A stretch of DNA of 64,000 nucleotides from Natrinema zhouii (GTDB taxonomy: Archaea > Halobacteriota > Halobacteria > Halobacteriales > Natrialbaceae): assembly GCF_013456555.2 (NCBI RefSeq), contig NZ_CP059154.1, positions 682,001 through 746,000 of the forward strand, in the 5' to 3' direction. This document shows, piece after piece, positions 30,672 to 51,333 of the stretch (positions are counted from its first letter, which is position 1; the number at the start of each line of letters is the position of its first letter). Position numbers and translations under genes: made by a program. The notes under the pieces are model-generated. The model had not been told where the DNA came from. It worked only from the letters and a program-made list of their open reading frames with translations, and did no database searches.

Positions 30672-30707
30672 ATGAACAACGCGAACACGGGTTTCCCAGA
30701 GCCATGA
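30672..30707 (+). CDS. Possible 11-codon leader ORF before the regulator
   Basis: ATG AAC AAC begins an 11-residue frame whose TGA overlaps the ATG of the next gene (ATGA at 30704-30707). The TATA box at 30631 would place the transcript start about 10 bases before it. It may couple or modulate translation of the regulator, or be chance. Confidence 0.35.
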   Translation: MNNANTGFPEP

Positions 30708-31204
30708 GCATCTATCGACGAGTTCCCACGCCCTTCCTCACGTCCGGTTCGGCGACCAGTGGAGCGATCGCGTCGGGGGTAGTTACGGGGTCTCGACCCG
30801 GATTCGCCTCGTGGCCGGTCCGACCGCTCCAACTCGAGGGAAGTGCCCACATTGCGGCGCTTGCCGGGATGATCGCGCTCGCGCTTCTCGGGGGAATACT
30901 CGTCGCTCGCAATCGATACGAGGAGCCAACCTCGCTTTCGTCCGGTCCGGAGGCGTCCCACGAGGAGTTCGTGACCGATCGGGATCGCGTCCGGCAACTC
31001 CTCCAGGAAAACGGCGGACGGATGAAACAGTCGAACATCGTCGACTCCGTCGATTGGTCGAAAGCGAAGGTCAGCCGGCTACTCGCCGACCTCGAGGAGG
31101 ACGAACAGATTACGAAACTGCGTCTCGGGCGGGAGAACCTGGTCTGTCTGCCGGGTCACGAACCGACGGCGTCGAAGTCGCCCGAACAGGCAAACGACGA
31201 CTAG
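30704..31204 (+). CDS. Membrane-anchored winged-helix regulator
   Basis: This 166-residue protein has one transmembrane helix (about 48-68, AALAGMIALALLGGILVA) after a short outer segment, then a cytoplasmic winged helix: RVRQLLQENGGRMKQSNIVD, VDWSKAKVSRLLADLEEDEQ, and a wing with ITKLRLGRENLV. This layout is common among haloarchaeal membrane-bound HTH proteins. The ligand and targets are unknown. Next to it lies a secreted repeat protein, a possible target. Confidence 0.85.
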   Translation: MSIYRRVPTPFLTSGSATSGAIASGVVTGSRPGFASWPVRPLQLEGSAHIAALAGMIALALLGGILVARNRYEEPTSLSSGPEASHEEFVTDRDRVRQLLQENGGRMKQSNIVDSVDWSKAKVSRLLADLEEDEQITKLRLGRENLVCLPGHEPTASKSPEQANDD

Positions 31205-31447: not shown

Positions 31448-33859
31448 ATGAACGCACGCAATCAGTTACTCGTCGTACTTACCGCGCTGATGCTCGTTTG
31501 CTCGAGCGGGGCGATGGTCACAGCCGCAACAACCGGTGAGACCGTCGAGCAGGGCAGCGAGGCCAGCGAGGACGAGTACGACTCAGCGAACGATTCAACG
31601 AACGAAACGACAACTGAAGCGGTGAACGAGACGGACGATGTCCCAACGGGGATCGATGAGAACGAAACGGCAGCCGACGACGGAACTGAATTCGACAACG
31701 AAACCGCGGATGCGGACAACGAGTCACAGCCCGCGTACGTGACGTTCGAAGAACAGACGACCGATGGCGAGACGGTCGTCGTCGAAAACGTCACGCTGGC
31801 GAACCCCGGTTTCGTGACGATCCACGATAGCAGCCTCCTCGTGGGCGAGGTCTTCGATAGCGTCATTGGTACCTCGGAATACCTCGAGGCCGGCACGCAC
31901 GAACAGGTCGAAGTCTCCCTCAACGAGTCGCTCGAGGAGGACGAGACCCTGACTGCGATGCCCCATCGCGATACGAACGACAACCAGACGTACGATTTCG
32001 TCGAATCGGAGGGGCAGTCTGACGGTCCCTTCCTCACGGCCGACGACGAGCCGGTGACCGACGGAGCAGTGGTCACCGTCGAGGAGGCGGTCGATGAGGG
32101 GGCAGTCGAGGATAACGAGACCAGCGAGGACGTTGAGCAGCCCGACGACAACGTCAGTGACGAAGAACCGATTGACGAGGAACCGACCGATAACATCACC
32201 GACGAACCGGTTGACGACAACGAAACCGATGATGACCTCGTCGACGACAACGAGACTGATGAGCTAGCTGACGACACCGAAACTGACGACGGTCTCGTCG
32301 ATGAGAATGAAACCGACGAAGACGGGCTAGCTGACGACGACAATGAGACCGACGACGGCCTCGTCGACGACAACGAGACTGACGAGGACGGGCTAGCTGA
32401 CGACGACGAAACCGATGACGGTCTCGTCGACGACAATGAAACCGACGACGGCCTCGTCGATGACAACGAGACTGACGAGGGCGAGTTAGCCGACGAAGAG
32501 CCAGTCGACGAGATGCCGATGGAGGAGATGCCGGTCGACGGTGACGGACAGCCGATCTTCGTCACCGTCGAGAATCCCACCATCGAGAACCTGAATGTCG
32601 AGAACGTATCCGTTTACGTGCTCGTCATCGGTGAAGATGTCGAGGCCGACGAAATCACGGACGAGATGGATAACGTCACCGATGGTGAGATGCCAGTCGA
32701 TGCCAACGTCACCGAAGACGACGAGGTTGACGACAACATCACTGAGGACGACGAGACTGACGATAATATCACGCCGATCGACGAGATGCCGATCGACAAC
32801 GAAACGGAGGATAACATCACCGAGGACGACGAAACCGACGATAACCTTACTGAGGACGACGAAACCGACGATAACCTCACGCCGATTGACGACGACGAAA
32901 CTGAGGACAACGTCACCGAAGACGACGAGACTGACGATAACCTCACACCGGTTGACGACGAAACTGAGGATAACATCACCGAGGATAACGAGACCGACGA
33001 TAACATCACGCCAATCGACGAAGAGCCGGTCGACAACGAAACGGAGGATAACGTCACCGAGGACGACGAGACCGACGATAACCTCACGCCGATCGACGAC
33101 GAAACGGAGGATAACATCACCGAGGACAACGAGACTGACGAAGACGGGCTAGCTGACGACGACAATGAAACCGATGACGGCCTCGTTGATGAGAATGAAA
33201 CCGACGAAGACGGGCTAGCTGATGACAATGAAACCGACGACGGCCTCGTCGACGACAACGAGACTGACGAGGACGGGCTAGCTGACGACAATGAAACCGA
33301 CGACGGCCTCGTCGACGACAACGAGACTGACGAGGACGGGCTAGCTGACGACAATGAAACCGACGACGGCCTCGTCGACGACAACGAGACTGACGAGGAG
33401 CCAGCCGGCGAGATGCCGATGGAGGAGCTACCGGTCGATGGTGACGGACAGCCGATCTTCGTCACCGTCGAGAATCCCACCATCGAGAACCTGAACATCG
33501 AGAACGTGTCCGTTTACGTGTTCGTCATCGGTGAAGGTGTCGACACCGACGAGATCACAGACGAGATGGACAACGTCACCGATGGTGAGATGCCTGTCGA
33601 CGACAACGTCACCGAAGACGACGAGATTGACGACAACATCACTGAGGACGACGAGACTGACGATAACATCACGCCAATCGACGAAGAGCCAGTCGACAAC
33701 GAAACGGAGGATAACGTCACCGAGGATGACGAGACCGACGAGTCCGACACCGAAGACACCGGATTGGACAACGAAACGAACGATACCGGGATCAACGAGA
33801 CCGAAGACGGTCTCAACGATACCGGTGAGAACACTACCGACGGCGTGACGGCCGACTAA
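31448..33859 (+). CDS. Secreted acidic repeat protein rich in N-glycosylation sequons
   Basis: This 803-residue protein has an N-terminal signal peptide (1-27) and one folded domain at about 95-220 (a DUF7282-like beta domain, FVTIHDSSLLVGEVF...). The rest is almost wholly Asp, Glu, Asn and Thr repeats. The NET triplet, a glycosylation sequon, recurs several dozen times. One unit, DDGLVDDNETDEDGLADDNE plus T, is exactly 21 residues and repeated in tandem. A conserved block (GQPIFVTVENPTIENLN...) appears twice, 300 residues apart. No C-terminal anchor motif or transmembrane segment is visible, so it is probably released or loosely surface-bound. It is a likely acceptor for the N-glycan machinery. 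Confidence 0.8.
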   Translation: MNARNQLLVVLTALMLVCSSGAMVTAATTGETVEQGSEASEDEYDSANDSTNETTTEAVNETDDVPTGIDENETAADDGTEFDNETADADNESQPAYVTFEEQTTDGETVVVENVTLANPGFVTIHDSSLLVGEVFDSVIGTSEYLEAGTHEQVEVSLNESLEEDETLTAMPHRDTNDNQTYDFVESEGQSDGPFLTADDEPVTDGAVVTVEEAVDEGAVEDNETSEDVEQPDDNVSDEEPIDEEPTDNITDEPVDDNETDDDLVDDNETDELADDTETDDGLVDENETDEDGLADDDNETDDGLVDDNETDEDGLADDDETDDGLVDDNETDDGLVDDNETDEGELADEEPVDEMPMEEMPVDGDGQPIFVTVENPTIENLNVENVSVYVLVIGEDVEADEITDEMDNVTDGEMPVDANVTEDDEVDDNITEDDETDDNITPIDEMPIDNETEDNITEDDETDDNLTEDDETDDNLTPIDDDETEDNVTEDDETDDNLTPVDDETEDNITEDNETDDNITPIDEEPVDNETEDNVTEDDETDDNLTPIDDETEDNITEDNETDEDGLADDDNETDDGLVDENETDEDGLADDNETDDGLVDDNETDEDGLADDNETDDGLVDDNETDEDGLADDNETDDGLVDDNETDEEPAGEMPMEELPVDGDGQPIFVTVENPTIENLNIENVSVYVFVIGEGVDTDEITDEMDNVTDGEMPVDDNVTEDDEIDDNITEDDETDDNITPIDEEPVDNETEDNVTEDDETDESDTEDTGLDNETNDTGINETEDGLNDTGENTTDGVTAD
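32534..33600 (+). repeat. Two copies of a ~170-bp block exactly 900 bp apart
   Basis: The segment starting at 32534 (coding GQPIFVTVENPTIENLN) is repeated from 33434 with few differences, mostly silent. The offset of exactly 900 bp and the kept reading frame suggest an internal duplication including the repeats between. Confidence 0.8.
33175..33396 (+). repeat. 63-bp tandem repeats
   Basis: CGGCCTCGTCGACG recurs at 33241, 33304 and 33367, spaced exactly 63 bp, and the intervening bases are nearly identical. Each unit codes for 21 residues with two NET sequons. Recent unequal exchange is the likely origin. Confidence 0.85.
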
Positions 33860-34126: not shown

Positions 34127-34630
34127 TTAGCCGAGCAGTTGGTAGAGACTGCTCGCCGCGACGGCGAGAAACAGCAGGACACTCGAGAGCACCGGATCGA
34201 TGCTCGAGACCACCGGTAGCCCGAGGCCGGCGAGCGCGATGATCGCGAGCCCGAGAAGACAGATTCCGAGGTGAAGCCACAAGACGCGCGAGTGGTCGTC
34301 GTTGTGGCCGTCGACGTACTGGAGAACCTCGTCGAAGTGACGGCCGGGCTGGATCGTCTTCGCGTCCGAGTCGTACTCGATCACGGCGTCTTCCTCGAGC
34401 TGGGGGAGATGCGTCTGTTGCAGGGAGACGTAGACGCTCTTGTAGAGGTTGTTCGGAACGGGCGTCGTATCGGTTTCAGTCGAAGCGATCTCGGTCGCGA
34501 CGTCGGAAACGTCGATCTGTCCGCCGTCCTCCGCGAGTAGTTGAACGATAGCCCGTCGTCTATCGTTACCGAGGATGTGAAACACCTCACTCTCCTCGAG
34601 TGGCTCAGTTCTGTTCGTTTGAACTGACAT
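34127..34630 (-). CDS. Winged-helix membrane-associated regulator (DUF7344-like), second paralogue
   Basis: This 167-residue protein has EVFHILGNDRRRAIVQLLAE, then SVYVSLQQTHLPQLEEDAVI, matching the paralogues at 25175 and 38048. It ends in two hydrophobic segments (LWLHLGICLLGLAIIAL and VLSSVLLFLAVAASS). ATG at 34630 is chosen since the upstream extension has no homology. The function is probably transcriptional, with the membrane part as sensor or anchor. Confidence 0.85.
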   Translation of the reverse strand: MSVQTNRTEPLEESEVFHILGNDRRRAIVQLLAEDGGQIDVSDVATEIASTETDTTPVPNNLYKSVYVSLQQTHLPQLEEDAVIEYDSDAKTIQPGRHFDEVLQYVDGHNDDHSRVLWLHLGICLLGLAIIALAGLGLPVVSSIDPVLSSVLLFLAVAASSLYQLLG

Positions 34631-34974
34631 CGATCGGAGAGAAAGGGCAAGGGTATTCGAACGACAGTCCACCACCAGTGACCATGTATCCCCACTTCAC
34701 CCACCACTAACTTTAACTTTTGCAGGTTACGCTATCGACCGATTCACACCGCGAGATCCGGTTGCGTGTGACGCGTAGTAAGGAAGGGGTACAGTCACGC
34801 AAGCGACCGGTTCCGCACCTCGGCCCTCTCTTCGAAAAGAGTGAGAATCGGAAACGGGTGCGGCGATGCGAAACGTTCGTGAGAGCCGATGAACGTATCG
34901 CTCATCCGAACCGAGAGCAGAAGGGGAGAAAAAGGACTGGGAATGAGACGACACTCCCAGCGCTCCGGCGGCGA
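34631..34974. other. Intergenic stretch, no gene seen
   Basis: Apart from a small hairpin near 34833 (CTCT...AGAG), nothing is recognisable. It separates two leftward genes. Confidence 0.4.
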
Positions 34975-38047: not shown

Positions 38048-38584
38048 CTATCGGCTCGCCAGGCCAAACGGGAGGTCCATATTCGGCCGGCGTGAGACGT
38101 GCTGGATTACCGAAAGGACGAGAACGATGAAACAGATCGCCAGCGCAACCATCGGCGCGAGACCGGTCGTCAGGGGGCCGACTGCGAGCCACGACAGCCC
38201 GAACGCGACGACGCCGATCGTGGTAACAGCCGCGTAGAGGCGGTGCCACGCCCGATCGTTCTCGAGTTGCCGATCGAGATACGGCTCGAAGCGGTCCTCG
38301 CTCGGCAGTAACTCGATCTTGTGTCCGTCGGGATCCCAGTCGACGATGCCGTGGTCCTCGAGCATTGGCAAATGGGTCTGGTACAGCGAGATGTAGACCC
38401 GACGGCGCTGGGTCCGGGTCACGTCGTCTGGATCGGTATCGTTCTCCCACGCGGCGACCTGCTGGACGAGCGGCGCGAGATCGCAGGAACCGCCCTGTCG
38501 CTTGAGGTACTGTACCGCTCGCCGTCGCCGCGCATTGCTGAAGACGTCGAATAGCTCGGCCTGCGTGAGTTCGGTCTCAGACAT
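38048..38584 (-). CDS. Winged-helix membrane-associated regulator (DUF7344-like), third paralogue
   Basis: This 178-residue protein has ELFDVFSNARRRRAVQYLKR, then TQRRRVYISLYQTHLPMLED and IVDWDPDGHKIELL as wing. Two hydrophobic segments follow (about 118-160). It is closest in layout to 25175. It faces left, divergent from the acetyltransferase operon of the glycan locus. Confidence 0.85.
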   Translation of the reverse strand: MSETELTQAELFDVFSNARRRRAVQYLKRQGGSCDLAPLVQQVAAWENDTDPDDVTRTQRRRVYISLYQTHLPMLEDHGIVDWDPDGHKIELLPSEDRFEPYLDRQLENDRAWHRLYAAVTTIGVVAFGLSWLAVGPLTTGLAPMVALAICFIVLVLSVIQHVSRRPNMDLPFGLASR

Positions 38585-39052: not shown

Positions 39053-39643
39053 ATGAGCGAAGCGGTACGAGAGGTCGTCCGCGGCGACGGCTGTACGATC
39101 GACGCCGACGCGACGGTCGGCTACGGCGAGTTCGACGAGCCGACTCGAATCGGCGACGACGCGACGATCAGAGCGGGTTCGATCGTCTACGGCGACGTGA
39201 CGATCGGCGACGAGTTCGCGACGGGACACGACGTCCTCGTCCGCGAAGGGACGACGATCGGTGACGACGTGCTCGTCGGAACCAAGACGGTCATCGACGG
39301 GCAGACCACGATCGGCTCGCACGTCAGCCTCCAGACGAACGTCTACGTTCCGACTGAGACGACGATCGGCAGCAACGTCTTCGTCGGCCCGGGTGCGGTG
39401 CTGACAAACGACGAATACCCCGTCCGAACGGACACCGGACTCGAGGGGCCGACGATCGAGGACGGCGCGTCGATCGGCGCGAACGCGACGCTGTTGCCCG
39501 GCGTCACGATCGGCGAGAACGCGTTCGTCGCCGCCGGAGCCGTCGTCACGGAGGACGTCCCGGCCGACAGCCTGGCCGTCGGTTCGCCGGCGACCGTCCA
39601 GTCACTCCCGGAGCCCTTAGCGGAGGAAAACCAGCTCGCATGA
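39053..39643 (+). CDS. Left-handed beta-helix N-acetyltransferase (WbpD-like)
   Basis: This 196-residue hexapeptide-repeat acyltransferase has runs such as IGDDATIRAGSIVYGDVTIG, with turns ending in GPGAVLTNDEYP, a loop typical of WbpD/PglD-like sugar acetyltransferases. It would acetylate the 3-amino group of a UDP-2-acetamido-3-amino-uronic acid. It is first of five overlapping genes (ATGA with the next). Confidence 0.9.
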   Translation: MSEAVREVVRGDGCTIDADATVGYGEFDEPTRIGDDATIRAGSIVYGDVTIGDEFATGHDVLVREGTTIGDDVLVGTKTVIDGQTTIGSHVSLQTNVYVPTETTIGSNVFVGPGAVLTNDEYPVRTDTGLEGPTIEDGASIGANATLLPGVTIGENAFVAAGAVVTEDVPADSLAVGSPATVQSLPEPLAEENQLA

Positions 39644-40860
39644 CGGATACCGAAACGAACCCCGAAGCCGACGGCGGCATCGAGACGAGTGCGGACGGCG
39701 GCACGGGAACCGAGACCGCGGAAACCGACGTCGAATCCGAACGGGAGGCGACGACAGCCGTTCCGATCGCCGACCCCGAACTCAGCGACGACGCCGTCCA
39801 GCGGGTCGAATCCATCCTCGAGGACGGCCGACTGGCAGACGGGCCGGAGGTCAGGGCCTTCGAGGAGGAGTTCGCGGCCTGCTGTGACACCGACGAGGCG
39901 GTCGCGACGGCCAACGGGACGACTGCGTTACACGCCGCCCTCGAGGCGATCGGGCTCGAGGACGGCGAGGCGGTGATCACGTCGCCGTTTTCCTTCGTCG
40001 CGAGCGCGAACGCGATTCGACTGGCGGGCGGCAAACCCGTCTTCGCCGATATCGATCCCGAGACCTACACGCTGGATCCGGCCGACGTGGAACGAGTGCT
40101 CGCCGAGCGCGACGACATCGCCGGAATCCTGCCGGTCCACCTCTACGGACTGCCCGCGGACATGCCGGCGCTGTGTGACATCGCCGACGACCGCGACCTG
40201 TTCGTCCTCGAGGACGCGTGCCAGGCCCACGGCGCGACAGTCGACGGCCAGCGAGTCGGCACGTTCGGTGACGCGGCCTGCTTCTCGTTCTATCCGACGA
40301 AGAACATGACGACCAGCGAGGGCGGAATGATCGTCACCGACCGCGACGACGTCGCCGAGCACGCCGCGAGCTACGTCAACCACGGCCGGGACGTGAGCGG
40401 GACCGGCGGTTACGACCACGTCGCGCTCGGACACAACTTCCGGATGACCAGCATCGAGGCGGCGATCGGTCGCGCCCAGCTCGAGCGGTTGTCGGAGTTC
40501 AACCGCGCCCGCCGCGAGAACGCCGCCGCGTACGATGCGGAACTCGCCGACCTTCCGCTCGAGACGCCAGCGGAGCCGACCGGCTCCCGCCATGTCTACC
40601 ACCAGTACACGGTGCGGACGACGGATCGGGACGCCCTCGCAGCGACGCTCTCGGAGCGAGGGATCGGGACCGGGATCTACTACGAGACGCCGATCCATCA
40701 CCAACCGGCCTACGAGACGGTTAGCACGGCTGCGGCACGGCTTCCCCACGCGGAACGGGCGGCCGATGAGGTGCTATCGCTGCCCGTTCACCAGGGCCTG
40801 TCGGCCCGCGACAGGAGAACCGTCGTCGAAGCAGTGCGGACCCACTTTACGACCCAATGA
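39640..40860 (+). CDS. DegT-family sugar aminotransferase (WbpE-like)
   Basis: This 406-residue PLP enzyme has NGTTALHAAL (92-101), LFVLEDACQAHGA with the PLP Asp, and the internal aldimine lysine Lys221 in FYPTKNMTTSEGG. The first 40 residues are an acidic low-complexity extension. In the WbpA-B-E-D pathway it installs the 3-amino group. It is coupled at both ends by ATGA overlaps. Confidence 0.92.
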   Translation: MTDTETNPEADGGIETSADGGTGTETAETDVESEREATTAVPIADPELSDDAVQRVESILEDGRLADGPEVRAFEEEFAACCDTDEAVATANGTTALHAALEAIGLEDGEAVITSPFSFVASANAIRLAGGKPVFADIDPETYTLDPADVERVLAERDDIAGILPVHLYGLPADMPALCDIADDRDLFVLEDACQAHGATVDGQRVGTFGDAACFSFYPTKNMTTSEGGMIVTDRDDVAEHAASYVNHGRDVSGTGGYDHVALGHNFRMTSIEAAIGRAQLERLSEFNRARRENAAAYDAELADLPLETPAEPTGSRHVYHQYTVRTTDRDALAATLSERGIGTGIYYETPIHHQPAYETVSTAAARLPHAERAADEVLSLPVHQGLSARDRRTVVEAVRTHFTTQ

Positions 40861-41882
40861 GCACGGACTATCGAACGGACGAGACGAGCGACGAACAGAT
40901 TCGGGCCGGCGTCATCGGCGTCGGTTCCATGGGCGAAAATCACGCGCGTATCTACGCCGAACTTCCCCGCGTGGAACTCGCCGGCGTTACTGACCACGAC
41001 GATGGGATCGCCCGACGAGTCGCCGACAAATACGAGACCGAGCCGCTCGACCTCGAGACGCTGTGCGAGCGCTGTGACGTCCTGACGGTAGCCGTCCCGA
41101 CCCGCGCTCACTACGAGATGGTCTCGACCTGTCTCGAGGCGGACGTCAACGTCCTGGTCGAGAAACCGATCGCGGAAACCGTCGAACAGGGCCAGCAGCT
41201 GGCCGAGCAGGCCCGCGAGGCCGGGCTCGTCTTGCAGGTCGGCCACATCGAGCGGTTCAACCCGGCAGTACAGACAGTCGAGGAACTGATCGACGACCTG
41301 GACGTGATCGGCATCGAGGCCGAGCGTCTCGGCCCGCCGATCGACCGGACGACATCTGACAACGTCATCCACGACCTGATGGTCCACGACGTCGACGTCG
41401 TCGGCTCGATACTCGACGATACGCCCCACTCGGTCACTGCGATGGGGACCGAGAACGGCCAGTACGCCACTGCGACCATCGAGTACGACGATGTCGTCGC
41501 GACAGTGACGGCGAGTCGCGTCACCCAGAAGAAGGTGCGAAAACTCACCGTCACCGCTCGCGAGTGCCTCGTCGAAGTGGACTACCTCGAGCAGTCGGTG
41601 TTGATCCACCGCGATTCCTACCCCGAGTACCTCACGGACGACGGGCAGTCCCGATACCGCCACGAGAGCGTCGTCGAGCGGCCCCGAGTCGACACCGGCG
41701 AGCCGTTGCGAAACGAACTCGAGTCGTTCGTCGAGGCCGTTCGCACCGGCTCCGAGCCGGAAGTGACCGCCGAAGACGGGATTCACGCCCTCGAGACGGC
41801 CCAGTTGATCGATCGGCTCGCGATGGGACCGCCGGACGAGACGGACGACGAACCGCCGCGAGAAACGGAGGTCGAAGCCTGA
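40857..41882 (+). CDS. Gfo/Idh/MocA oxidoreductase (WbpB-like)
   Basis: This 341-residue NAD(P)-dependent sugar dehydrogenase has the Rossmann segment RAGVIGVGSMGENHARIYAE, then EKPIAETVEQG with the family's EKP, and the catalytic-region His in DLMVHDVDVV. It probably oxidises the 3-position of UDP-GlcNAcA. It overlaps neighbours by ATGA and TGATG. Confidence 0.9.
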   Translation: MSTDYRTDETSDEQIRAGVIGVGSMGENHARIYAELPRVELAGVTDHDDGIARRVADKYETEPLDLETLCERCDVLTVAVPTRAHYEMVSTCLEADVNVLVEKPIAETVEQGQQLAEQAREAGLVLQVGHIERFNPAVQTVEELIDDLDVIGIEAERLGPPIDRTTSDNVIHDLMVHDVDVVGSILDDTPHSVTAMGTENGQYATATIEYDDVVATVTASRVTQKKVRKLTVTARECLVEVDYLEQSVLIHRDSYPEYLTDDGQSRYRHESVVERPRVDTGEPLRNELESFVEAVRTGSEPEVTAEDGIHALETAQLIDRLAMGPPDETDDEPPRETEVEA

Positions 41883-43468
41883 TGCCGGAAGCTTCGACCG
41901 GTAGTAGCGATGAAGCCGAATCCCAGACTACTGGCGGAACTGACGGTCAGCCCACGGATGGTGACGGCCAGACCGCTGCCGGAGCCGACGGCCAGACCGC
42001 TAGCGGGCTCTACGGCTCGAGCCAGTCCCCGGACCGCCAGCGCGACCGCCTGACGAGCGGCGAGATTCCGGTCGCCGTCTACGGGCTCGGCAAGATGGGG
42101 CTCCCGCTCGCAGCGGTCTACGCCGAGACCACGGGGAACGTAACTGGCGTCGACGTCGACCCCGCCGTCGTCGAGACGATTACCGCCGGGGAGAGTCACG
42201 TCGTCGGCGAACCCGGCCTCGCGGACCTCGTCGCCGACCAGGTCGATGCGGGGCGACTCGAGGCCACGACCGACGGATCGGCGGCGGCGTCTGCGGCGCG
42301 GATTCACGTCATCATCGTCCCGACGCTGCTGGACGACGAGAACGATCCGGATCTGACGACGGTCGAGTCGGTCGTCGACGACATCGCTGCCGGTCTGGCC
42401 CCCGGCGATCTGGTAATCGCCGAGTCGACGCTGCCGCCGGGGACCTGCCGCGACGTCCTCGAGCCCCACCTCGCGAGCGAGAGCGGCCTCGCACCCGACG
42501 AGTTCGGGCTCGCGTTCTGTCCGGAACGGACCGCCTCGGGCACGGCGTTGCGGGACATCCGCGGCCAGTATCCGAAGGTCGTCGGCGGCGTCGATCCGGA
42601 GAGCACTCGGGCGGCTACGGTCGTCTACGACGAACTCTCGGACGACGAGGTCCACCCCGTCTCGGACGCGACGACCGCGGAGGCCGTCAAGGTGTTCGAG
42701 GGAATCTATCGCGACGTGAACATCGGTCTCGCGAACGAGCTGGGCCGACTCGCGGACGAGCTCGATATCTCGGTCCGCGAAGCGATCGACACGGCAAACG
42801 ACCTGCCGATGTGCCAGCTCCACGATCCCGGCCCGGGCGTCGGCGGGCATTGCATCCCCTACTACCCGCACTTCCTGCTCGGCCGGACCGACGAGCCGAT
42901 GGCCGTGACCGAGACCGCCCGCCAGGTCAACGACGAAATGCCCGCCGCCGTCGTCGACCGACTCGAGGGCGAACTCGAGCAAGCGGGCACCGACCTCGCG
43001 GACGCCTCGATCGTCGTCCTCGGGATAACGTATCGACCGGGCGTCGAGGAGACGCGCGCCTCGCCCGCGCTGGGAGTGATCGACGACCTGCTCGAGCGGG
43101 GAGCCGACGTCGCGGGCGTCGACCCGCTCGTCGATCCGGCTGACCACGGCGCGCGGCCGGTGGCGATCGATGAGCTACCGAACGAGACGTTCGACGCCGC
43201 CGTAGTCGTCACGCCCCACGAGGAGTTCGATCGAATCGACTGGGCCGCCCTCGAGCCGATGGTCGTCGTCGACGGCCGGGACGCGTTCGACCTCTCGGAA
43301 ACGTCCCATCGGGAGTACGACCTCGCCGGCTCGAGCGACGGCCGGCCGCCGCGGGATTCGCGTGATCCCGACGATAGTACCGAACGCGATGACACTGAGC
43401 GCGATGGTACCGAGCGCGGGACGTCAGAGGCGGTGAGCACGAGCACGGACGGAGGAAACGATGTATAA
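41882..43468 (+). CDS. UDP-N-acetyl-hexosamine 6-dehydrogenase (WbpA/WecC-like)
   Basis: This nucleotide-sugar dehydrogenase has 528 residues, longer than the usual 420-440. The NAD loop GLGKMG is at 68-73 and the catalytic Cys324 in GPGVGGHCIPYYP. The first 60 residues are polar repeats of DGQTA type and the last 50 are repeats of ERDDT/ERDGT type, both absent from bacterial relatives. It would make the 6-carboxyl of UDP-GlcNAcA or ManNAcA. The start overlaps the upstream stop (TGATG). Confidence 0.92.
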   Translation: MPEASTGSSDEAESQTTGGTDGQPTDGDGQTAAGADGQTASGLYGSSQSPDRQRDRLTSGEIPVAVYGLGKMGLPLAAVYAETTGNVTGVDVDPAVVETITAGESHVVGEPGLADLVADQVDAGRLEATTDGSAAASAARIHVIIVPTLLDDENDPDLTTVESVVDDIAAGLAPGDLVIAESTLPPGTCRDVLEPHLASESGLAPDEFGLAFCPERTASGTALRDIRGQYPKVVGGVDPESTRAATVVYDELSDDEVHPVSDATTAEAVKVFEGIYRDVNIGLANELGRLADELDISVREAIDTANDLPMCQLHDPGPGVGGHCIPYYPHFLLGRTDEPMAVTETARQVNDEMPAAVVDRLEGELEQAGTDLADASIVVLGITYRPGVEETRASPALGVIDDLLERGADVAGVDPLVDPADHGARPVAIDELPNETFDAAVVVTPHEEFDRIDWAALEPMVVVDGRDAFDLSETSHREYDLAGSSDGRPPRDSRDPDDSTERDDTERDGTERGTSEAVSTSTDGGNDV

Positions 43469-44543
43469 GGGCAAGCGAATCGGCGTCGTCGTCACGGCCT
43501 ACGACGAGGCGTCGTTCGTCGGTCGCGTCATCGAGACGGTCCCGGACTTCGTCGATCGGATCTACGCCATCGACGACAGATCGCCGGACGAGAGCTGGCA
43601 GGTGATCCAGCGCGTCGCCGAGCGGGTCAACGCGGAGGCGGAGAGCGACGGAGTCGAACGGGTGGTCGCGGTCACCGACGGCGGCGACGACCGTCGCGTC
43701 GTGCCGATCCGTCACGAGGAAAACCGCGGCTACGGTGCGGCGGTCAAGACCGGCTACCGCCGCGCGACGGAAGAGGGGATGGACGTCGTCGCCGTCATGA
43801 ACGGCGACGGCCAGATGGATCCCACCATCCTCGATCGGATCATCGATCCGGTCGTGACCGGCGAGGCCGACTACGCCAAAGGGAATCGGCTGCTTCGACC
43901 CGAAGACCGCGGGGACATGTCGACGTTCCGGTTCGTCGGAAACGCGATCCTCACCGGGCTCTCGAAGTTCGCCTCGGGCTACTGGTCGATCGGCGACCCG
44001 CAGAACGGGTACACCGCTATTTCGCGGGACGCGATCGAGCGACTCGACCTCGAGGCGATCACCGACCAGTACGGATTCCTCAATCACCTCCTGACACACC
44101 TCAACGTGGCGGGCTGTCGCGTCACGGATGTCCCGATGACGGCGGTCTACGGCGACGAGGAGAGCAGCATCCGGTACGTCCCGTTCGTCCGGTTCGTCTC
44201 CCTGCTGTTGCTCCGGAGCTTCTGCTGGCGGCTGAAAACGCGGTACGTCGTCCGGTCGTTCAATCCGGCCGTCGTCCACTACGCCGTCGGCGCAGTGGGT
44301 CTGGCCGGCGGCCTGATGGGACTGGGCGTCTCGCTCGTCCGGGTGGCACGCGGCGACGAGGCCGTAACGGCCGGCCTCGCCTCGTTCGCCGCACTCCTCA
44401 CCGGGCTCGTCTCGCTCGGCAGCGCCATCCAGCTCGACGCCGAAGCGAGCGACGAACTCGAGGTCTCGTACGACGAACGCACGTCGACGACTGACGGAGT
44501 ATCCGATCGCGACGATCGACCGCCGGCTCAATCGATCGAGTAA
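43461..44543 (+). CDS. GT2-family glycosyltransferase with C-terminal membrane helices
   Basis: This 360-residue protein has a GT-A domain: GVVVTAYDEASFVGRVIETV, IDDRSPDE, RGYGAAVKTGYR and the metal-binding NGDGQMDP. Two transmembrane helices (about 277-300 and 310-333) follow. It resembles dolichol-phosphate sugar synthases such as AglD/AglJ types in archaea. It may load the diacetamido sugar or another sugar on dolichol phosphate. It overlaps the dehydrogenase by 8 bp. Confidence 0.88.
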   Translation: MYKGKRIGVVVTAYDEASFVGRVIETVPDFVDRIYAIDDRSPDESWQVIQRVAERVNAEAESDGVERVVAVTDGGDDRRVVPIRHEENRGYGAAVKTGYRRATEEGMDVVAVMNGDGQMDPTILDRIIDPVVTGEADYAKGNRLLRPEDRGDMSTFRFVGNAILTGLSKFASGYWSIGDPQNGYTAISRDAIERLDLEAITDQYGFLNHLLTHLNVAGCRVTDVPMTAVYGDEESSIRYVPFVRFVSLLLLRSFCWRLKTRYVVRSFNPAVVHYAVGAVGLAGGLMGLGVSLVRVARGDEAVTAGLASFAALLTGLVSLGSAIQLDAEASDELEVSYDERTSTTDGVSDRDDRPPAQSIE

Positions 44544-44734
44544 GTCACGATCGCGTCGCTCTCGCAGGTCGGACACTGGGTTGTTCCGGCCGAGACGTTC
44601 GTCCCGCAGTTACGACACTCGTGGACGACCGTGACTGATTTGACGCCATCACCGCTTTGCGCGGCGGTTTCGGGTGTATCCACGGTGGAGTCGGAGCCGG
44701 AGAACAGTTCACTAAGTAGTGTAGAGAGACTCAT
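44528..44734 (-). CDS. Small zinc-ribbon protein (68 aa)
   Basis: The Cys pairs CRNC and CPTC lie in VTVVHECRNCGTNVSAGTTQ and CPTCESDAIVTY, with an N-terminal acidic helix (LSTLLSELFSGSDSTVD). Its end overlaps the GT2 end by 16 bp, tail to tail. This type of haloarchaeal micro-protein is uncharacterised. Confidence 0.8.
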   Translation of the reverse strand: MSLSTLLSELFSGSDSTVDTPETAAQSGDGVKSVTVVHECRNCGTNVSAGTTQCPTCESDAIVTYSID

Positions 44735-44887
44735 AGAACAGGGTTGTCGGCTCTATTCCAGAGATAGCTATAAGTTTTTCGTGAGTCGTTCGATACTGTC
44801 ATCGGTACGTATAATTCCGTGAACTGACCGATTCTGTGGCTCGTGATAGCTTGGCACGCCCTCAGTACAGTCATCATTCCGACGGCG

Positions 44888-45988
44888 TCACATCGACTGT
44901 GATCGCGGCTGTAACACCCGCTTGGTCGACCGGTCGAACCGGTCGACCGTTCCCCGCGACCGGGCGACGTCGACGAGCAGGTCGGTGAGGTTCACGAGCT
45001 CGTCCACGTACTCCCGCCGCCGCCGTTGCCAGCGATCATCGGCCGTGTCGTCGGCGAGAATCTCGAGCGAGCGAGCACGGACCGCATCGTACTCGTCGAA
45101 CTGCTCGGTGAGGCCGGCCCGCTCGAGCGCCTGAAACTCGCCGTACTCGTGCGTGTCGGTGCCGCGATACCGGAAGGCTGGCGTCCCGAGCAGTGCCGCC
45201 TCGTTGACCATCGTCCCAGTGTCGGCGACCAGCAGCGACGCCTCGGCCATCGCGTCGTGGATCAACGCGGGGTGGAGATCGTACGCCCGCGCGGGGAGGT
45301 CCCGGAGGTCCATCTCGTCGCCCTCGTCGGAGACGAAGACAGTCACCTCCTCGCTGAGTCGTTCGATCAGGTCGCGGCGCTGTTCGGGACGGAACCCCTC
45401 GATACCTGCGTCGTGAAGGGCGTCGAGGGCGTTGAACCGAACGAGCACGTACGGTTCGTCCGGGGCCACGTCGAGGTACTCCCGCACGTCGACGTTCGGT
45501 TCGAAGACGTCGGGATGGAGATAGGCACACTCCTTGAAGCCGTCGAAGGTGTAGTGGGCGTCGCCGAGGTCGCGCCGCGTCACCGCCGGCGAGAGAATAC
45601 AGTCGGCGAAGGGCCGGGAGACGGTGTGGTTGAAGTCGCCGGGCTCGTCGTCCAGGACGAGCACGACGGGGCTCCGCGTCAGCGTGCCGGCGGTGGCCGC
45701 GTAGGGTCCCCGGCCGAAGATCACGTCGGGATCGAACCGGATCGATTCGGTCGCGATGGTGAGGAACTGGCCACCTAACTCGCGGGCGAACCCCAGTTTC
45801 GAGTATCGCTCCGTTCTGTGATCGCCGTACACCCGGTAGGGCATGTCGAAATAGTCGAGTAGGTCGGTCGTACAGGCGTACTCCCTGGTGAGTACCAGCA
45901 CGTCGTGACCCGTTCGCTCGAGACGGTCGACGGCGTGTCGATACAGGTGAACGTGGGCTGGCGTATTCGCCAAGACGAGGATCCGCAT
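44888..45988 (-). CDS. DUF354-type glycosyltransferase-like protein
   Basis: This 366-residue protein has a GT-B-like fold. The start MRILVLANTPAHVHLYRHAV matches DUF354 proteins; DVIFGRGPYAATAG, PVVLVLDDEPGD and the later LLVADTGTMVNEAALLGTPA resemble UDP-sugar-binding regions of epimerase/transferase GT-B proteins. Its function in polysaccharide assembly is inferred from family and place. A related element, ATTACAAAG, lies 25-33 bp upstream. Confidence 0.82.
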   Translation of the reverse strand: MRILVLANTPAHVHLYRHAVDRLERTGHDVLVLTREYACTTDLLDYFDMPYRVYGDHRTERYSKLGFARELGGQFLTIATESIRFDPDVIFGRGPYAATAGTLTRSPVVLVLDDEPGDFNHTVSRPFADCILSPAVTRRDLGDAHYTFDGFKECAYLHPDVFEPNVDVREYLDVAPDEPYVLVRFNALDALHDAGIEGFRPEQRRDLIERLSEEVTVFVSDEGDEMDLRDLPARAYDLHPALIHDAMAEASLLVADTGTMVNEAALLGTPAFRYRGTDTHEYGEFQALERAGLTEQFDEYDAVRARSLEILADDTADDRWQRRRREYVDELVNLTDLLVDVARSRGTVDRFDRSTKRVLQPRSQSM

Positions 45989-46012
45989 CGCTGCAGACTA
46001 CCCCCGCTCGAC

Positions 46013-46021
46013 CCTTTGTAA
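46013..46021 (-). promoter_or_regulatory. ATTACAAAG, one-base variant of the motif, before DUF354 gene
   Basis: The minus strand reads GATTACAAAGGG. It differs from ATAACAAAG in one base and is about 25 bp upstream of the start codon. Confidence 0.35.
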
Positions 46022-46113
46022 TCCCATCGCTACGGACGGAATCGATCGGAAGCCCCCGTGTACGGAGCCAACATCTAGGTGTAGGTGAAGAAAAACCAGT
46101 CTCGGTCGAGCGG

Positions 46114-46122
46114 ATAACAAAA
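46114..46122 (+). promoter_or_regulatory. ATAACAAAA motif before the GT4 gene
   Basis: It reads GGATAACAAAACGG, 31 bp before the glycosyltransferase start, close to the distance of a TATA box from a leaderless start. Confidence 0.45.
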
Positions 46123-46153
46123 CGGTTTCAGTCCGTTTCGTCCGATACTCGAA

Positions 46154-47143
46154 ATGGACGTCCTCACGCTCACTGCGTACGCCGATGCCCCGTTCATGAT
46201 TCAGCAGATGGACGCGCTCGAGGAGCGCGGCGTCTCGTTTACGACGATGTCGGTGGCCGGTGAGATCGACGACGACACCGACCGGAGTCCGGTGGACTAC
46301 CTCCGGACCGTTCCGAGGGCCATCCGGGAGGCGGGGAACGGCTACGACCTGATACACGCTCACTACGGGTTGACGGGGCCGATCGCGCTCGCACAGCTCC
46401 GCAAGCCGGTCGTCCTCTCGCTGTGGGGATCGGACGTCCACGGCCCGGTCGCGCCCGTCAGCCGGGCGTCCGCGCCGTTTTGTGACGAGGTCGTCGTCAT
46501 GTCCGAGGAGATGCGCACGGAACTCGGCCGCGACTGCCGAGTGATTCCTGACGGCGTCGACCTCGAGACGTTTCGTCCGGAACCCCAGGATCGGGCCAAA
46601 GCGCGGGTCGACTGGGACGACGATGAGGACGCGTACGAGGTACTCTTCCCCTACTCCCCCGCACGCGACGTGAAGAACTATCCGCGGGCCGAGCGCGTCG
46701 TCTCCGTGGTCGACAACCTCCTCGAGCGACCCGTGCGGCTCCGGACCGTCTCCGGCGTCGATCACGATGCGGTTCCGGACTACATGAACGCCGCCGACGC
46801 GCTCCTGTTGACCTCCCACAGCGAGGGGTCGCCTAACTCGGTGAAGGAGGCGCTGGCCTGCAACCTCCCCGTCGTCGCCGTCAACGTCGGCGACGTGCGG
46901 GAGCGACTGGCCGGCGTCGAGCCCTCCTGCGTCGCGGCGAGCGACGAGGAACTCGCCCGGGGACTCATCGACGTCCTCGAGCGCGGCGAGCGGTCGAACG
47001 GCCGCGAGGCCGCCCGCCAGGTGAGCATCGACCGGACGGCCGATCGGATGCTCGAGGTCTACGAGGGGGTCGCAGGGCAGGTGATCGAGACCGAGGATGA
47101 CAGGGAGAAACGACCTGTGACGGGAGCGGCTCGACTCGAATAG
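46154..47143 (+). CDS. GT4-family glycosyltransferase
   Basis: This 329-residue GT-B enzyme has IHAHYGLTGPIALAQL and PVVLSLWGSDVHGP in the N-domain, RVIPDGVDLETFRP as linker, and LLTSHSEGSPNSVKEALACN, the E-x7-E motif of GT4. It transfers a sugar from an activated nucleotide donor; the donor is unknown. It is divergent from the DUF354 gene. Confidence 0.92.
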   Translation: MDVLTLTAYADAPFMIQQMDALEERGVSFTTMSVAGEIDDDTDRSPVDYLRTVPRAIREAGNGYDLIHAHYGLTGPIALAQLRKPVVLSLWGSDVHGPVAPVSRASAPFCDEVVVMSEEMRTELGRDCRVIPDGVDLETFRPEPQDRAKARVDWDDDEDAYEVLFPYSPARDVKNYPRAERVVSVVDNLLERPVRLRTVSGVDHDAVPDYMNAADALLLTSHSEGSPNSVKEALACNLPVVAVNVGDVRERLAGVEPSCVAASDEELARGLIDVLERGERSNGREAARQVSIDRTADRMLEVYEGVAGQVIETEDDREKRPVTGAARLE

Positions 47144-47230
47144 CTCTCATACTACCGACCTCGAGCCGGTATGGTTCAAAATTTAGTTTCCGACCCAAAA
47201 CATATCTTTCACCAGTGCGTGGGGTCCCGT

Positions 47231-47818
47231 ATGGGAGCGGACGACTCGAAAATTTCCGACGTCGATCCGTTTCCGGAAACGGAAACGGAAACCGAGGTGA
47301 ACGACGCAGCCGAGCGGGAGTGGACGGCCGCGACGACGGCGTTCGAGCGCGTCGAATCGGTTCTCGGTCGAACGACCGACTGGCAGAGCGCGAGCGAAAT
47401 CGCTGACCGGGCCCGCGTCTCCGAACCGACCGCACGAAAGCATCTCACAGCGCTGGCCGAGACAGGGCATGCGGCGACGAGAGAGACCGGAAATGCGACT
47501 CGATTCCGACGTAACCCCGACCGACGGCGACTCGAGCGAGTGCAACGACTCGCTGACGATCACTCGCGCGGTGAGCTAGAGCGTTCGATCCGCGAGATGA
47601 AAGCGCGGATTCGGGCGTTCGAAGACGCGTACGAAGCGACGAGTCCCGAGGAACTCGTCGATAGTCTGGAACCGGACGACGAAGACGGGTGGAACGATCT
47701 CTCTCGGTGGAAGACGACGCGCCGAAATCTCGCGTTCGCGAAGACGGCCCTCTCGTTTACGGAAACGCGACTCGTCGACTCGAGGAGCACTGGTGAGGAA
47801 CGCGCAGAGAATGCCTGA
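47231..47818 (+). CDS. HTH protein of a probable regulator/TumE pair (DUF7342-like)
   Basis: This 195-residue acidic protein has a winged helix at about 60-105 (SEIADRARVSEPTARKHLTA, LAETGHAATRETGNATRFRR), then a helical part (RSIREMKARIRAFEDAYEAT). It overlaps the next gene by 8 bp. In haloarchaea such proteins sit beside TumE-like proteins and are annotated as antitoxin-like. The start at 47231 is chosen; the frame is open further upstream. Confidence 0.75.
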   Translation: MGADDSKISDVDPFPETETETEVNDAAEREWTAATTAFERVESVLGRTTDWQSASEIADRARVSEPTARKHLTALAETGHAATRETGNATRFRRNPDRRRLERVQRLADDHSRGELERSIREMKARIRAFEDAYEATSPEELVDSLEPDDEDGWNDLSRWKTTRRNLAFAKTALSFTETRLVDSRSTGEERAENA

Positions 47819-48242
47819 CGAACGGGGACCGATCGACTGGGACGCGTTACGCTCAGTCGAGCGCGTCTTTCGCGATCGACTCGACGGACTGGTCACGGAC
47901 GTGACGTACGCTCCGAGTGCTATCGACCCGGTCGAACTGCAGATCACACTCGCCCTCGGCTTCGACGGAGACAGCTGCCGGTTCGACATCCAGTGGTGGC
48001 TGAATCACGGATACAAGTACCACTACACTGAATCCGATCTCGAGTTCCGGTTCGGCTGGGAAATTCGTCCGAGCTACCCGGACAAACACTTCCACTCGCC
48101 TGAAAACCCGGCCGAGCATCGCGAGTCGTGTATCACTCACGAGGAACCGGAACTGGTCACGCTCGCCGTCATCAAGTGCTGGTGGGACGCGCTCGAGGCC
48201 GACGATCCGTCGCTGCTGAATTCGCGCGAAAATCCGCCATAG
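47811..48242 (+). CDS. TumE-like toxin-antitoxin family protein
   Basis: This 143-residue protein's centre reads GYKYHYTESDLEFRFGWEIR and SYPDKHFHSPENP, similar to TumE (DUF6516) proteins with a Y-x-H-Y / PDKHFH motif, possibly a nuclease-like site. Identification is by pattern and neighbour only. ATG at 47811 is inside the previous gene's last codons; a GTG at 47793 is possible. Confidence 0.6.
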   Translation: MPDERGPIDWDALRSVERVFRDRLDGLVTDVTYAPSAIDPVELQITLALGFDGDSCRFDIQWWLNHGYKYHYTESDLEFRFGWEIRPSYPDKHFHSPENPAEHRESCITHEEPELVTLAVIKCWWDALEADDPSLLNSRENPP

Positions 48243-48284
48243 CTGGGACGATATTCGATACTTGGTGGCCGTTCTATTTCGGCG

Positions 48285-49265
48285 CTACTGCACTTCCGCC
48301 CGATACCACTCCATTGCCTCGGGCACGTGCGCCTCGAGCGGCTGGTACTCGTAGCCCAGTTCCTCGCTGGCTTTCCGCGAGCTGTAGAACAGTCGCTGGG
48401 TGGCGAGTTTCGCCATCTGCCGATCGAAGGGGAACATCCGGCGATCGGCGACGGCGTCGACGACCTCGGCGACCGGCCCGGCGGCCTGGATCGCCGCGGC
48501 AGGGACGCGGATCCGTGCAGGTGAGCCGCCGGCCGCGTCGGCGATTCTGGAGACCGCCCGGTCATAGGTGAGGTTCTCGCCGCCGAGGATGTAGTGTTCG
48601 CCGCTGGTCCCGCGCTCGTACGCCGCAAGTATGCCGTCGACGACGTCGGAGACGCCGACGATGCTCAGGCCGCCGGGGAGGTGGGCGGGCATCGTCGGCT
48701 CGACGCCCATCGAGAGCAGTTGCGCGGTGAACTCCTCGTCGCCCGGCCCGAAGATCGACGTCGGGTGGACGGTGACGGCGTCTCCGTCCGTGTCGGCGTA
48801 CCGATCGACCAGCGCCTCCGCCTCGGCTTTCGAGGCCTGGTAGGCACCGATCGGCTCGGCCACGTCCGTCTCGTCCGCGAAGTCGCTCCCGTTCTTCGGG
48901 CGACGCGTTCCGGACGTACTGGTAAACACCACGCGGCCCACGTTGCTGTCTCGACAGGCCTCGAGCACGCGCTCCGTCCCGTCTCGGTTAACTTCCCAGA
49001 CCGTCTCCGGGCCGGCGCTCCAGAGGCCGATCCCCGCGAGGTGGAAGACGACGTCGATCCCGTTGACGAGTTCGCGCAGCGTCTCGTCGTCGAAGAGATC
49101 GCCGACGTACCACTCCACGTCGTCGAGATCACCCCGATCCGAGGTCGGGCGACTGAGCCCGCGAACCGTCCAGCCGTCCTCGAGCAGACGTTCACACAGC
49201 CGCGAGCCGAGGAAGCCGGTCGCGCCGGTGACCGCCGCGGTGCGAGATTCAGTCATGGTCGTCAT
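48285..49265 (-). CDS. NAD-dependent epimerase/dehydratase (extended SDR)
   Basis: This 326-residue protein has the NAD loop GATGFLGSRL, VFHLAGIGLWSAG, the active-site Tyr/Lys in GAYQASKAE and Ser/Thr in STSGTRRP. It looks like dihydroflavonol-reductase/sterol-dehydrogenase-type SDRs that often modify sugars or lipids. It is last in a three-gene unit; its start overlaps the DUF362 stop (ATGA). Confidence 0.88.
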   Translation of the reverse strand: MTTMTESRTAAVTGATGFLGSRLCERLLEDGWTVRGLSRPTSDRGDLDDVEWYVGDLFDDETLRELVNGIDVVFHLAGIGLWSAGPETVWEVNRDGTERVLEACRDSNVGRVVFTSTSGTRRPKNGSDFADETDVAEPIGAYQASKAEAEALVDRYADTDGDAVTVHPTSIFGPGDEEFTAQLLSMGVEPTMPAHLPGGLSIVGVSDVVDGILAAYERGTSGEHYILGGENLTYDRAVSRIADAAGGSPARIRVPAAAIQAAGPVAEVVDAVADRRMFPFDRQMAKLATQRLFYSSRKASEELGYEYQPLEAHVPEAMEWYRAEVQ

Positions 49266-50215
49266 CGACCGCCCTCGAGTTGCGGCGGGACGGCGTCGCC
49301 GGCGACCGCCGCGTAAACGCGGTAGGCGGCCGAGACGGCGGGGTGGGTCTCGTCCGAGGGCGGGAGTTCGCCGTCGGGGATCCGATCTCGAAGCCGCTCG
49401 AAGTCGACGTTAGCACCCTCGACGGAGACCGGTCCGGCCTCACCGCGGGCCGTCTTCAGCGCCGCGTCGGTCTCGATCGAGCGCCCGAGCAGCGAGGTCG
49501 CGACGGCGTCGACAGCGGGAGCCGAACCCGCGAACAGCGCGTTCCCCGTAGCGGGATCGCCGCCGTAGGCAGTCGTCGCATCCAGAACGCTCACGGCGGG
49601 CTCGATGACGCGCGTCGCCGCGACGGGAACCCGCTCGGGATCCGCGGTCGAGTCGACGAGCGCGGCGAGCGTTCGCATCGCGCCGGCGACCGGCCCGTCC
49701 TCGCTCGGTCGCAGCGACGGGACGACGATCACGGTACTCTCGACGAGCCGCTCGGACACCGAGATCGCCATCGGCGTTCCGTCGACGGTACAGATGTCGT
49801 CGGTCCGGGACTCGTCCGCCAGATCGACGAGTTCCGCGTCGAACCGCTCGAGCAGGCTCGCGTAGCCGAGGTACGCCGCCGTCCGGCCAAAGGAGATCCG
49901 CTCGTCGCTCGCACCGGCGACGGCGACGTCGGCGTCCGTCCGCCGCTCGAGGCGGGCGACGATCGACCCGATCACCGCGGGATCGGTGACCATCCCCGAC
50001 GACGGGTGGAACGGGTAGTGAGCGTCGGGGACGAGCGTAATCCGGTCGGCCTCGGCGAGCGTCTCGAGCGAGGGCTCGAACAGGTCTCGAACGGGCGACC
50101 CGAGGGCGGCCATGCGGTCGTCGACGTCGGGGTCCCAGCCGCCGCGGCGTTTATCGGCGTCGACGGCGGCCGCGCGGACCGATGCCTCCGTCGTGGAATC
50201 ACCCATCGCGCTCAT
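49262..50215 (-). CDS. DUF362-type protein
   Basis: This 317-residue protein has the DUF362 N-terminal strands RITLVPDAHYPFHPSSGMVT and VVPSLRPSEDGPVAGAMRTL. It lacks the 4Fe-4S CxxCxxC clusters found in some members. The function of the family is unknown; members of this type occur in archaeal glycan loci. It overlaps both neighbours by four bases. Confidence 0.72.
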   Translation of the reverse strand: MSAMGDSTTEASVRAAAVDADKRRGGWDPDVDDRMAALGSPVRDLFEPSLETLAEADRITLVPDAHYPFHPSSGMVTDPAVIGSIVARLERRTDADVAVAGASDERISFGRTAAYLGYASLLERFDAELVDLADESRTDDICTVDGTPMAISVSERLVESTVIVVPSLRPSEDGPVAGAMRTLAALVDSTADPERVPVAATRVIEPAVSVLDATTAYGGDPATGNALFAGSAPAVDAVATSLLGRSIETDAALKTARGEAGPVSVEGANVDFERLRDRIPDGELPPSDETHPAVSAAYRVYAAVAGDAVPPQLEGGR

Positions 50216-51333
50216 AGCGTCACCTCCGGCGTCTCGAGTCCGTCGATCTCGTCGGCGGCTTCGTCGGTCTCCGCGGCCAGTTCGTAGGCTCGCTCGGCGA
50301 GCGCGAGCGTTCGGCGACCGTCGGCCCCGTCGATCGGCGGCTGCTCGCCCTCGCGGATCGCCTCACAGAAGTCCGCCAGGGCGTCGTAGTGAGCCTGCAG
50401 GTAGAAGGACGGTCCGAAGACGTCCGGTTCGTCGCGCGTGAGTCGACTGGCGACGTTCGAGAGGGCGGACTTGGCCGCGCCGGCGTAGAAGTTCTGTGGC
50501 AGGTGCTCCTGATTGCTGATCGTCCCCGTCACGCCCTCGAGGCGCAGGCGGGTGTTGACCTCCGGGAGTTGTTCCCACTGGTAGGAGCCACAGTGGAGCG
50601 TGATCGTCGTCCCCGCCTCCGGCGCTTCCATGAGGACGGTCGCGGCGTCCTCGACGTCGATCTCGAGCGTCCGTCCCATCGACGCGTCCCGGACCCGGAG
50701 CTCGCCGAACAGCCACTCGAGGACGTCGAAGCAGTGAACGCCGAGCTCGAGCAGGGAGCCGCCGCCGACGGCGTCGGAGTCCAGCGGCCACGAGGGTGGT
50801 GCGTTCTCGACCGGCGGTCGACCGAGCGGGCCGTCGTTGAGTCGGGTGATCGAGGCGTAGGGGACGTGACCGACGCTCCCCTCGTCGTAGGCCGCCTTGA
50901 CGCCGGCCATGTCCGGCTGGTAGCGCAGCGTGTGGTCGACGCCGACGGCGATCTCCGCCTCGCGGGCGGTCTCGAGCAACTCGTCGGCCTCCTCGGTCGA
51001 GCGAGCGAGCGGTTTTTCGACGAAGACGTCGACGCCGGCCTCGGCGGCCCGCTCGACGGCTTCGGCGTGGAGGAACGGCGGGAGCGCGACGACCGCCGCG
51101 TCCAGGTCCTCGGAGTCGAGCAGCGTCGCATAATCGTCGTACGTGCGCGACGCACCGACGCGTTCGGCGCGCTCGCGATTCTCGGGGACGGCGTCAGCGG
51201 CCGCCACGACTTCGACGCCGGGCATCGCGGCTGCTGACTTCAGGTGTACCATGCCGATGTTCCCGACGCCGAGGACGCCCAGCGAGAGCGCACTCGAGTC
51301 GGTCAACCGATTCAAAAGAGGTGTTGGTGCCAT
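50212..51333 (-). CDS. Gfo/Idh/MocA oxidoreductase
   Basis: This 373-residue protein has the Rossmann segment GVLGVGNIGMVHLKSAAAMP, FVEKPLARSTEEAD with EKP, and GGGSLLELGVHCFDVLEWLF with the conserved Asp/His region. It is first of an operon with DUF362 and SDR. It probably acts on a sugar nucleotide or inositol-type intermediate. An ATAACAAAG motif is 27 bp upstream. Confidence 0.9.
   Translation of the reverse strand: MAPTPLLNRLTDSSALSLGVLGVGNIGMVHLKSAAAMPGVEVVAAADAVPENRERAERVGASRTYDDYATLLDSEDLDAAVVALPPFLHAEAVERAAEAGVDVFVEKPLARSTEEADELLETAREAEIAVGVDHTLRYQPDMAGVKAAYDEGSVGHVPYASITRLNDGPLGRPPVENAPPSWPLDSDAVGGGSLLELGVHCFDVLEWLFGELRVRDASMGRTLEIDVEDAATVLMEAPEAGTTITLHCGSYQWEQLPEVNTRLRLEGVTGTISNQEHLPQNFYAGAAKSALSNVASRLTRDEPDVFGPSFYLQAHYDALADFCEAIREGEQPPIDGADGRRTLALAERAYELAAETDEAADEIDGLETPEVTL

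Follow-up and report, generated by a model that had tools for sequence, protein, structure and literature searches.

The gene at positions 31448..33859 (+ strand) of the analysed window, a stretch of 64,000 nucleotides from Natrinema zhouii, encodes an acidic, sequon-rich protein of 803 amino acids that, from comparative sequence analysis, is best read as a secreted, disordered, polyanionic, N-glycosylated and mucin-like protein of the surface or matrix, with a probability of about 0.6. The protein belongs to a conserved family of the Natrialbaceae that is predicted to be secreted and for which no earlier description was found. The frame starts with ATG and is open throughout its 803 codons (ORF listing), and orthologues with the same signal peptide occur genus-wide. 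Antisense ORFs over the gene were rejected as mirror ORFs of the low-complexity repeat, and Rfam returned no structured RNA across 29-36 kb. Asp (23.0%), Glu (17.3%), Thr (12.5%) and Asn (8.5%) add up to 61% of the residues, so that the sequence-only reading, which had described a “giant” protein of “almost pure” Asp/Glu/Asn/Thr, overstated both the length and the purity. Asp and Glu make up 40% of the chain, Lys and Arg account for two residues in all, and the predicted pI is about 4. The several dozen sequons that had been claimed are indeed present: N-[^P]-S/T sequons number 58 (Thr in 52, Ser in 6; 27 are NET), or 7 per 100 residues, against 9.3 ± 2.6 expected from composition and a maximum of 20 in 2000 shuffles of the mature chain. 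Six of the 58 are followed by Pro, which usually lowers sequon occupancy.

The chain opens with a signal peptide (MNARNQLLVVLTALMLVCSSGAMVTAA, approximately residues 1-27; 31448..31528) that is typical of the Sec type when judged by eye and strongly conserved, being near-identical in orthologues, as the sequence-only reading had proposed. Since the residue before Cys18 is Val, Ile or Leu in nearly all orthologues and Cys18 itself varies, the signal peptide has no lipobox; a lipoprotein was ruled out, Cys18 being replaced by Ser, Phe or Thr in several orthologues. An acidic linker with sequons (31529..31732) leads to a DUF7282 domain (PF23951; 31733..32077), followed by a first acidic NET repeat block (32090..32542) with units such as DDGLVDDNETDEDGLADDDNET, a short hydrophobic beta-like motif (QPIFVTVENPTIENLNVENVSVYVLVIGEDVEA; 32549..32647), a second acidic block (32648..33442), in which NITEDDETDD and NLTPIDDDETEDNVTEDD precede NETDEDGLADDNETDDGLVD units, and a second copy of the motif (33449..33547), 300 codons from the first. 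All of these features lie on the + strand, and tandem repeats with units of 30, 63, 66 and 78 bp span 32.2-33.7 kb. The single folded domain that had been described corresponds to DUF7282, the sole Pfam domain of the protein, yet the two copies of the beta-like motif, QPIFVTVENPTIENLN[VI]ENVSVYV, stand besides it. The chain closes with an acidic, sequon-bearing tail (33752..33856, + strand) that ends in GENTTDGVTAD, with no visible C-terminal transmembrane segment or PGF-CTERM-like tail and no NCBIfam match, in agreement with the earlier claim that a C-terminal anchor is absent. Retention at the surface is putative, since the protein has no known anchor or element for binding to the S-layer.

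DUF7282 covers residues 96-210 and matches the full profile (E 1.1e-41, 142 bits, cut-off 27), and it is predicted by AlphaFold2 to form a mostly beta, Ig-like sandwich with a pLDDT of 93. No relatives of solved structure were found by sequence, Foldseek gave generic, weak Ig-like matches, none with E < 0.001, and the best VIA-align 2 match, a carbohydrate-binding module (Z 7.5, rmsd 3.4, 95 aligned), falls in a range where likeness may mean merely a common arrangement of the fold. No mention of DUF7282 was found in the literature consulted. The Pfam scan, in which DUF7282 was the one match and no ice-binding family appeared, lends no support to the suggestion of ice binding, while cation binding may be expected from charge alone. 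The domain is common to DUF7282 proteins of haloarchaea, large surface proteins among them; outside the Natrialbaceae these commonly carry a PGF-like motif and a hydrophobic C-terminal segment (L085-L094), and some contain tandem domains, whereas the acidic family has acidic repeats and lacks the anchor. Several Natrinema genomes also encode proteins of about 690 amino acids with five or so tandem DUF7282 domains (G002:C1:957659-959548, G010:C1:2275369-2277240, G019:C1:1717297-1719159, G020:C11:3370-5271, G024:C1:1978376-1980232).

Orthologues follow a common plan of signal peptide, acidic linker, DUF7282, acidic repeats, one short beta-like motif, acidic repeats, an Ig-like CARDB domain (PF07705) and an acidic tail. 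CARDB, which matched in 13 of the 13 representatives scanned (best E 3e-10) and is modelled as an eight-strand sandwich (AlphaFold2, pLDDT 93), lies near the C-terminus and is the domain that the orthologues share with CARDB surface proteins. The window's copy departs from this plan in two respects: the beta motif is duplicated together with repeats, and CARDB is gone, with no match to its Pfam profile in the protein. The duplication comprises approximately 630 bp including the motif, its copies (32215..32841, gene nt 768-1394, and 33094..33741, gene nt 1647-2294; + strand) being 85.6% identical, and of 91 codons compared at the 300-codon offset, 9 differ synonymously and 10 nonsynonymously. 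In the nearest orthologues, L034 and L035, which have one copy of the motif, the stretch FNVSDLEAP...YVHMVLSDESGEVAALELTE stands ahead of a tail identical to that of the window's protein, and the comparison places the junction at the missing CARDB (DDETDES/DTEDTGLDNET) at 33728..33751 (+ strand). Recombination between repeats is the likely origin of both the duplication and the loss of CARDB, although an assembly error at the repeat may be their source. Orthologues on the tree range from 419 to 1000 amino acids, and in that of 1000 (L142, G038:C3) a long, pure PEQ repeat (PEQPEQPEQ...) replaces part of the acidic stalk.

An orthologue is present in 28 of 28 other Natrinema genomes, truncated in one, and in most Natrialbaceae genomes. 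Across genera the gene is preceded by pyrD, dihydroorotase, a GalE-like epimerase and a DUF7343 protein and followed by DUF7344, DUF7563, HTH, PadR and DUF1616 genes, so that the acidic-protein genes can be regarded as positional orthologues. In the window the conserved neighbours are a DUF7343 winged-helix protein upstream (30704..31204, +; Pfam E 4e-28) and a DUF7344 protein downstream (34127..34675, −; Pfam). The latter forms a pair with a second DUF7344 gene (38048-38584, −) that flanks the small HTH and PadR regulators and the DUF1616 gene, and this block, which is kept as a whole across the Natrialbaceae, adjoins a glycan locus (39053..51333) in which Pfam identifies a hexapeptide acyltransferase, a DegT aminotransferase, GFO/IDH oxidoreductases, glycosyltransferases and an epimerase. 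In G011 (L061/L184, G011:C1 near 1128281) the orthologue ends inside DUF7282 and the usual downstream neighbours are absent, indicating that the locus has been rearranged or disrupted there.

The properties of the family separate when its members are compared on a tree. All 71 orthologues are acidic, with 29-49% Asp plus Glu, whereas 46 are enriched in sequons and 25 are not; the tree requires eight changes between the rich and the poor state, at least five of which are forced by well-supported branches. Acidity is therefore the constant property, and sequon richness has been gained and lost repeatedly. The 27 complete Natrinema orthologues carry 18-51 sequons each, approximately 4.5 times the expectation or more, with 58-87% of their Asn residues within sequons. 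Since repeat expansion copies any motif, sequons inside one protein are non-independent events. In the 46 rich orthologues, Ser or Thr occupies N+2 for 77% of Asn (baseline 15%, other offsets 2-23%), and N+2 is the top Ser/Thr offset in 46/46 rich as against 6/25 poor orthologues. The bias holds over repeat units as unlike as NETDEDGLADD, LDDEEDNVTDE, EEEPVNETPTE, DEFDENVTDDE and EEPNETEEPVE; because the units differ so strongly between lineages, it does not stem from the expansion of one peptide. The same orthologues show a Thr:Ser ratio of 1059:191 in sequons versus 3254:1173 overall. We read the N+2 bias as a probable sign of selection for N-glycosylation sites. This and the sequon excess lend comparative support to the heavily N-glycosylated, mucin-like surface protein that had been proposed, with glycan occupancy as a prediction. 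From the 25 genomes without enrichment it follows that glycosylation is not essential to the basic role of the family. Sequon-poor taxa include Natronorubrum, Natronococcus and Natrarchaeobius, and also Halopiger djelfimassiliensis, which we take not to be an alkaliphile; alkaliphily as a cause of sequon loss is only a lead.

In Haloferax volcanii the oligosaccharyltransferase AglB acts on N-X-S/T sequons, and every N-glycoprotein of the main dataset was predicted to be secreted or transmembrane (PMC8241124). AglB (TIGR04154) was found in 111 of 111 good Natrialbaceae genomes, sequon-rich and sequon-poor alike, so the poor state is not simply due to absence of the enzyme. The 803-residue protein thus combines sequons, a signal peptide and an AglB-bearing host, the prerequisites of an N-glycoprotein. 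The AglB gene of this genome (G000:C1:1115623-1118277) lies approximately 400 kb from the acidic-protein gene, and the neighbourhood is also kept beside sequon-poor orthologues (L078, L080), which gives the closeness of the glycan locus little weight; that locus, put forward earlier as a possible modifier, is indeed nearby, and its adjacency was discounted as evidence of modification.

A second surface protein of 1583 amino acids, non-repetitive and with a DUF7282 domain (L199:2664-7415, G000:C1 near 1242163-1246914, − strand), varies along with the acidic protein in sequon density (Spearman 0.67, 38 genomes). Among the first 21 genomes the sequon enrichment of this protein separated the rich and poor groups without overlap, while exceptions appeared once 17 further genomes were included: G100, G080, and also G112 and G114, in which the best matches are more distant proteins. 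Over six phylogenetically independent pairs, approximately three were concordant, none discordant and three tied, which alone is not significant. The correlation suggests that lineages may differ in the N-glycosylation load of their surface at large. A tentative and rather doubtful extension is that Natrialbaceae lineages repeatedly shift this load over the whole surface proteome, keeping AglB and the acidic backbone. If so, the acidic protein family would be the extreme read-out of a proteome-wide shift, with sequons coming and going inside an ever-rebuilt acidic repeat.

Other explanations place the function elsewhere in the chain. The repeats could be merely salt-adapted spacers, forming an acidic stalk for adhesion or ligand-binding by DUF7282 and CARDB. 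This would account for the strong conservation of DUF7282 (76% mean column identity), for CARDB, named for cell-adhesion-related domains, in all 13 scanned orthologues, and for acidic spacers that every lineage keeps while their sequence turns over freely. However, pure spacers leave the N+2 bias of the 46 orthologues unexplained, the window's protein has lost CARDB and yet has expanded repeats, and no ligand is known, the Foldseek matches being generic; we consider this explanation unlikely. It is still less probable that the protein acts as a polyanionic buffer of cations and water whose sequons are an incidental by-product of the expansion of NET-type repeats. Acidity is universal where sequons are not, and a single chance NET could be multiplied by expansion, but Thr is kept at N+2 despite lineage-specific repeat units, and the rich or poor state tracks another surface protein that is not repetitive. 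The missing CARDB, along with the truncated orthologue of G011, could also mean that the locus is decaying, or a contingency locus, in this strain, the C-terminal domain having been lost through recombination between repeats and the protein being no longer functional. Against this stand the open frame of 803 codons, the intact signal peptide, DUF7282 and C-terminal tail, and differences between the repeat copies that are partly synonymous and include no stops, so that decay appears very improbable.

In the favoured reading of a glycosylated, mucin-like protein, the chain would be exported by Sec and its signal peptide cleaved, giving a mature protein in which the Ig-like DUF7282 and the short beta motifs are strung along long, probably mostly disordered Asp/Glu repeats. 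The composition of these repeats suggests that they would be extended and hydrated and would hold counter-ions at high salt. N-glycans would be added by AglB, in Natrinema as well as in several sister lineages, to a high proportion of the N-x-T sequons. The glycosylated chain could then form a thick, hydrated coat or matrix, either on the cell surface or in the surrounding medium. Repeat recombination would alter the length of the stalk and shuffle domains, and in this strain it would have duplicated the segment with the beta motif and deleted the C-terminal CARDB.

In its mode of working the protein most resembles halomucin (Hmu1) of Haloquadratum walsbyi, which is secreted, negatively charged, repeat-rich and glycosylated and varies in length by repeat-mediated deletion (PMC1544339, PMC3119063). 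The likeness is one of composition and mode: halomucin has 7,837-9,159 amino acids and other domains, compared with 803 amino acids and DUF7282 here, a length that falls short of a halomucin-like size of over 2,000 amino acids, whereas a signal peptide, judged from sequence, is present. The protein is accordingly classed by its domain, among the DUF7282 proteins, and not with halomucin. The S-layer glycoprotein of haloarchaea is secreted and acidic and carries N-x-S/T sequons, representing the type of AglB substrate. The 803-residue protein, predicted to be secreted, shares these properties, but differs in lacking a C-terminal anchor and in having long stretches of low-complexity repeats that are very densely packed with sequons. 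It thereby offers a high-density putative AglB substrate on which occupancy can be measured. The family as a whole amounts to a natural experiment: with AglB always present, a single syntenic protein has retained its acidic low-complexity backbone throughout the lineages but has gained or lost dozens of sequons, so that the contribution of glycans to a halophilic surface that is polyanionic already can be addressed.
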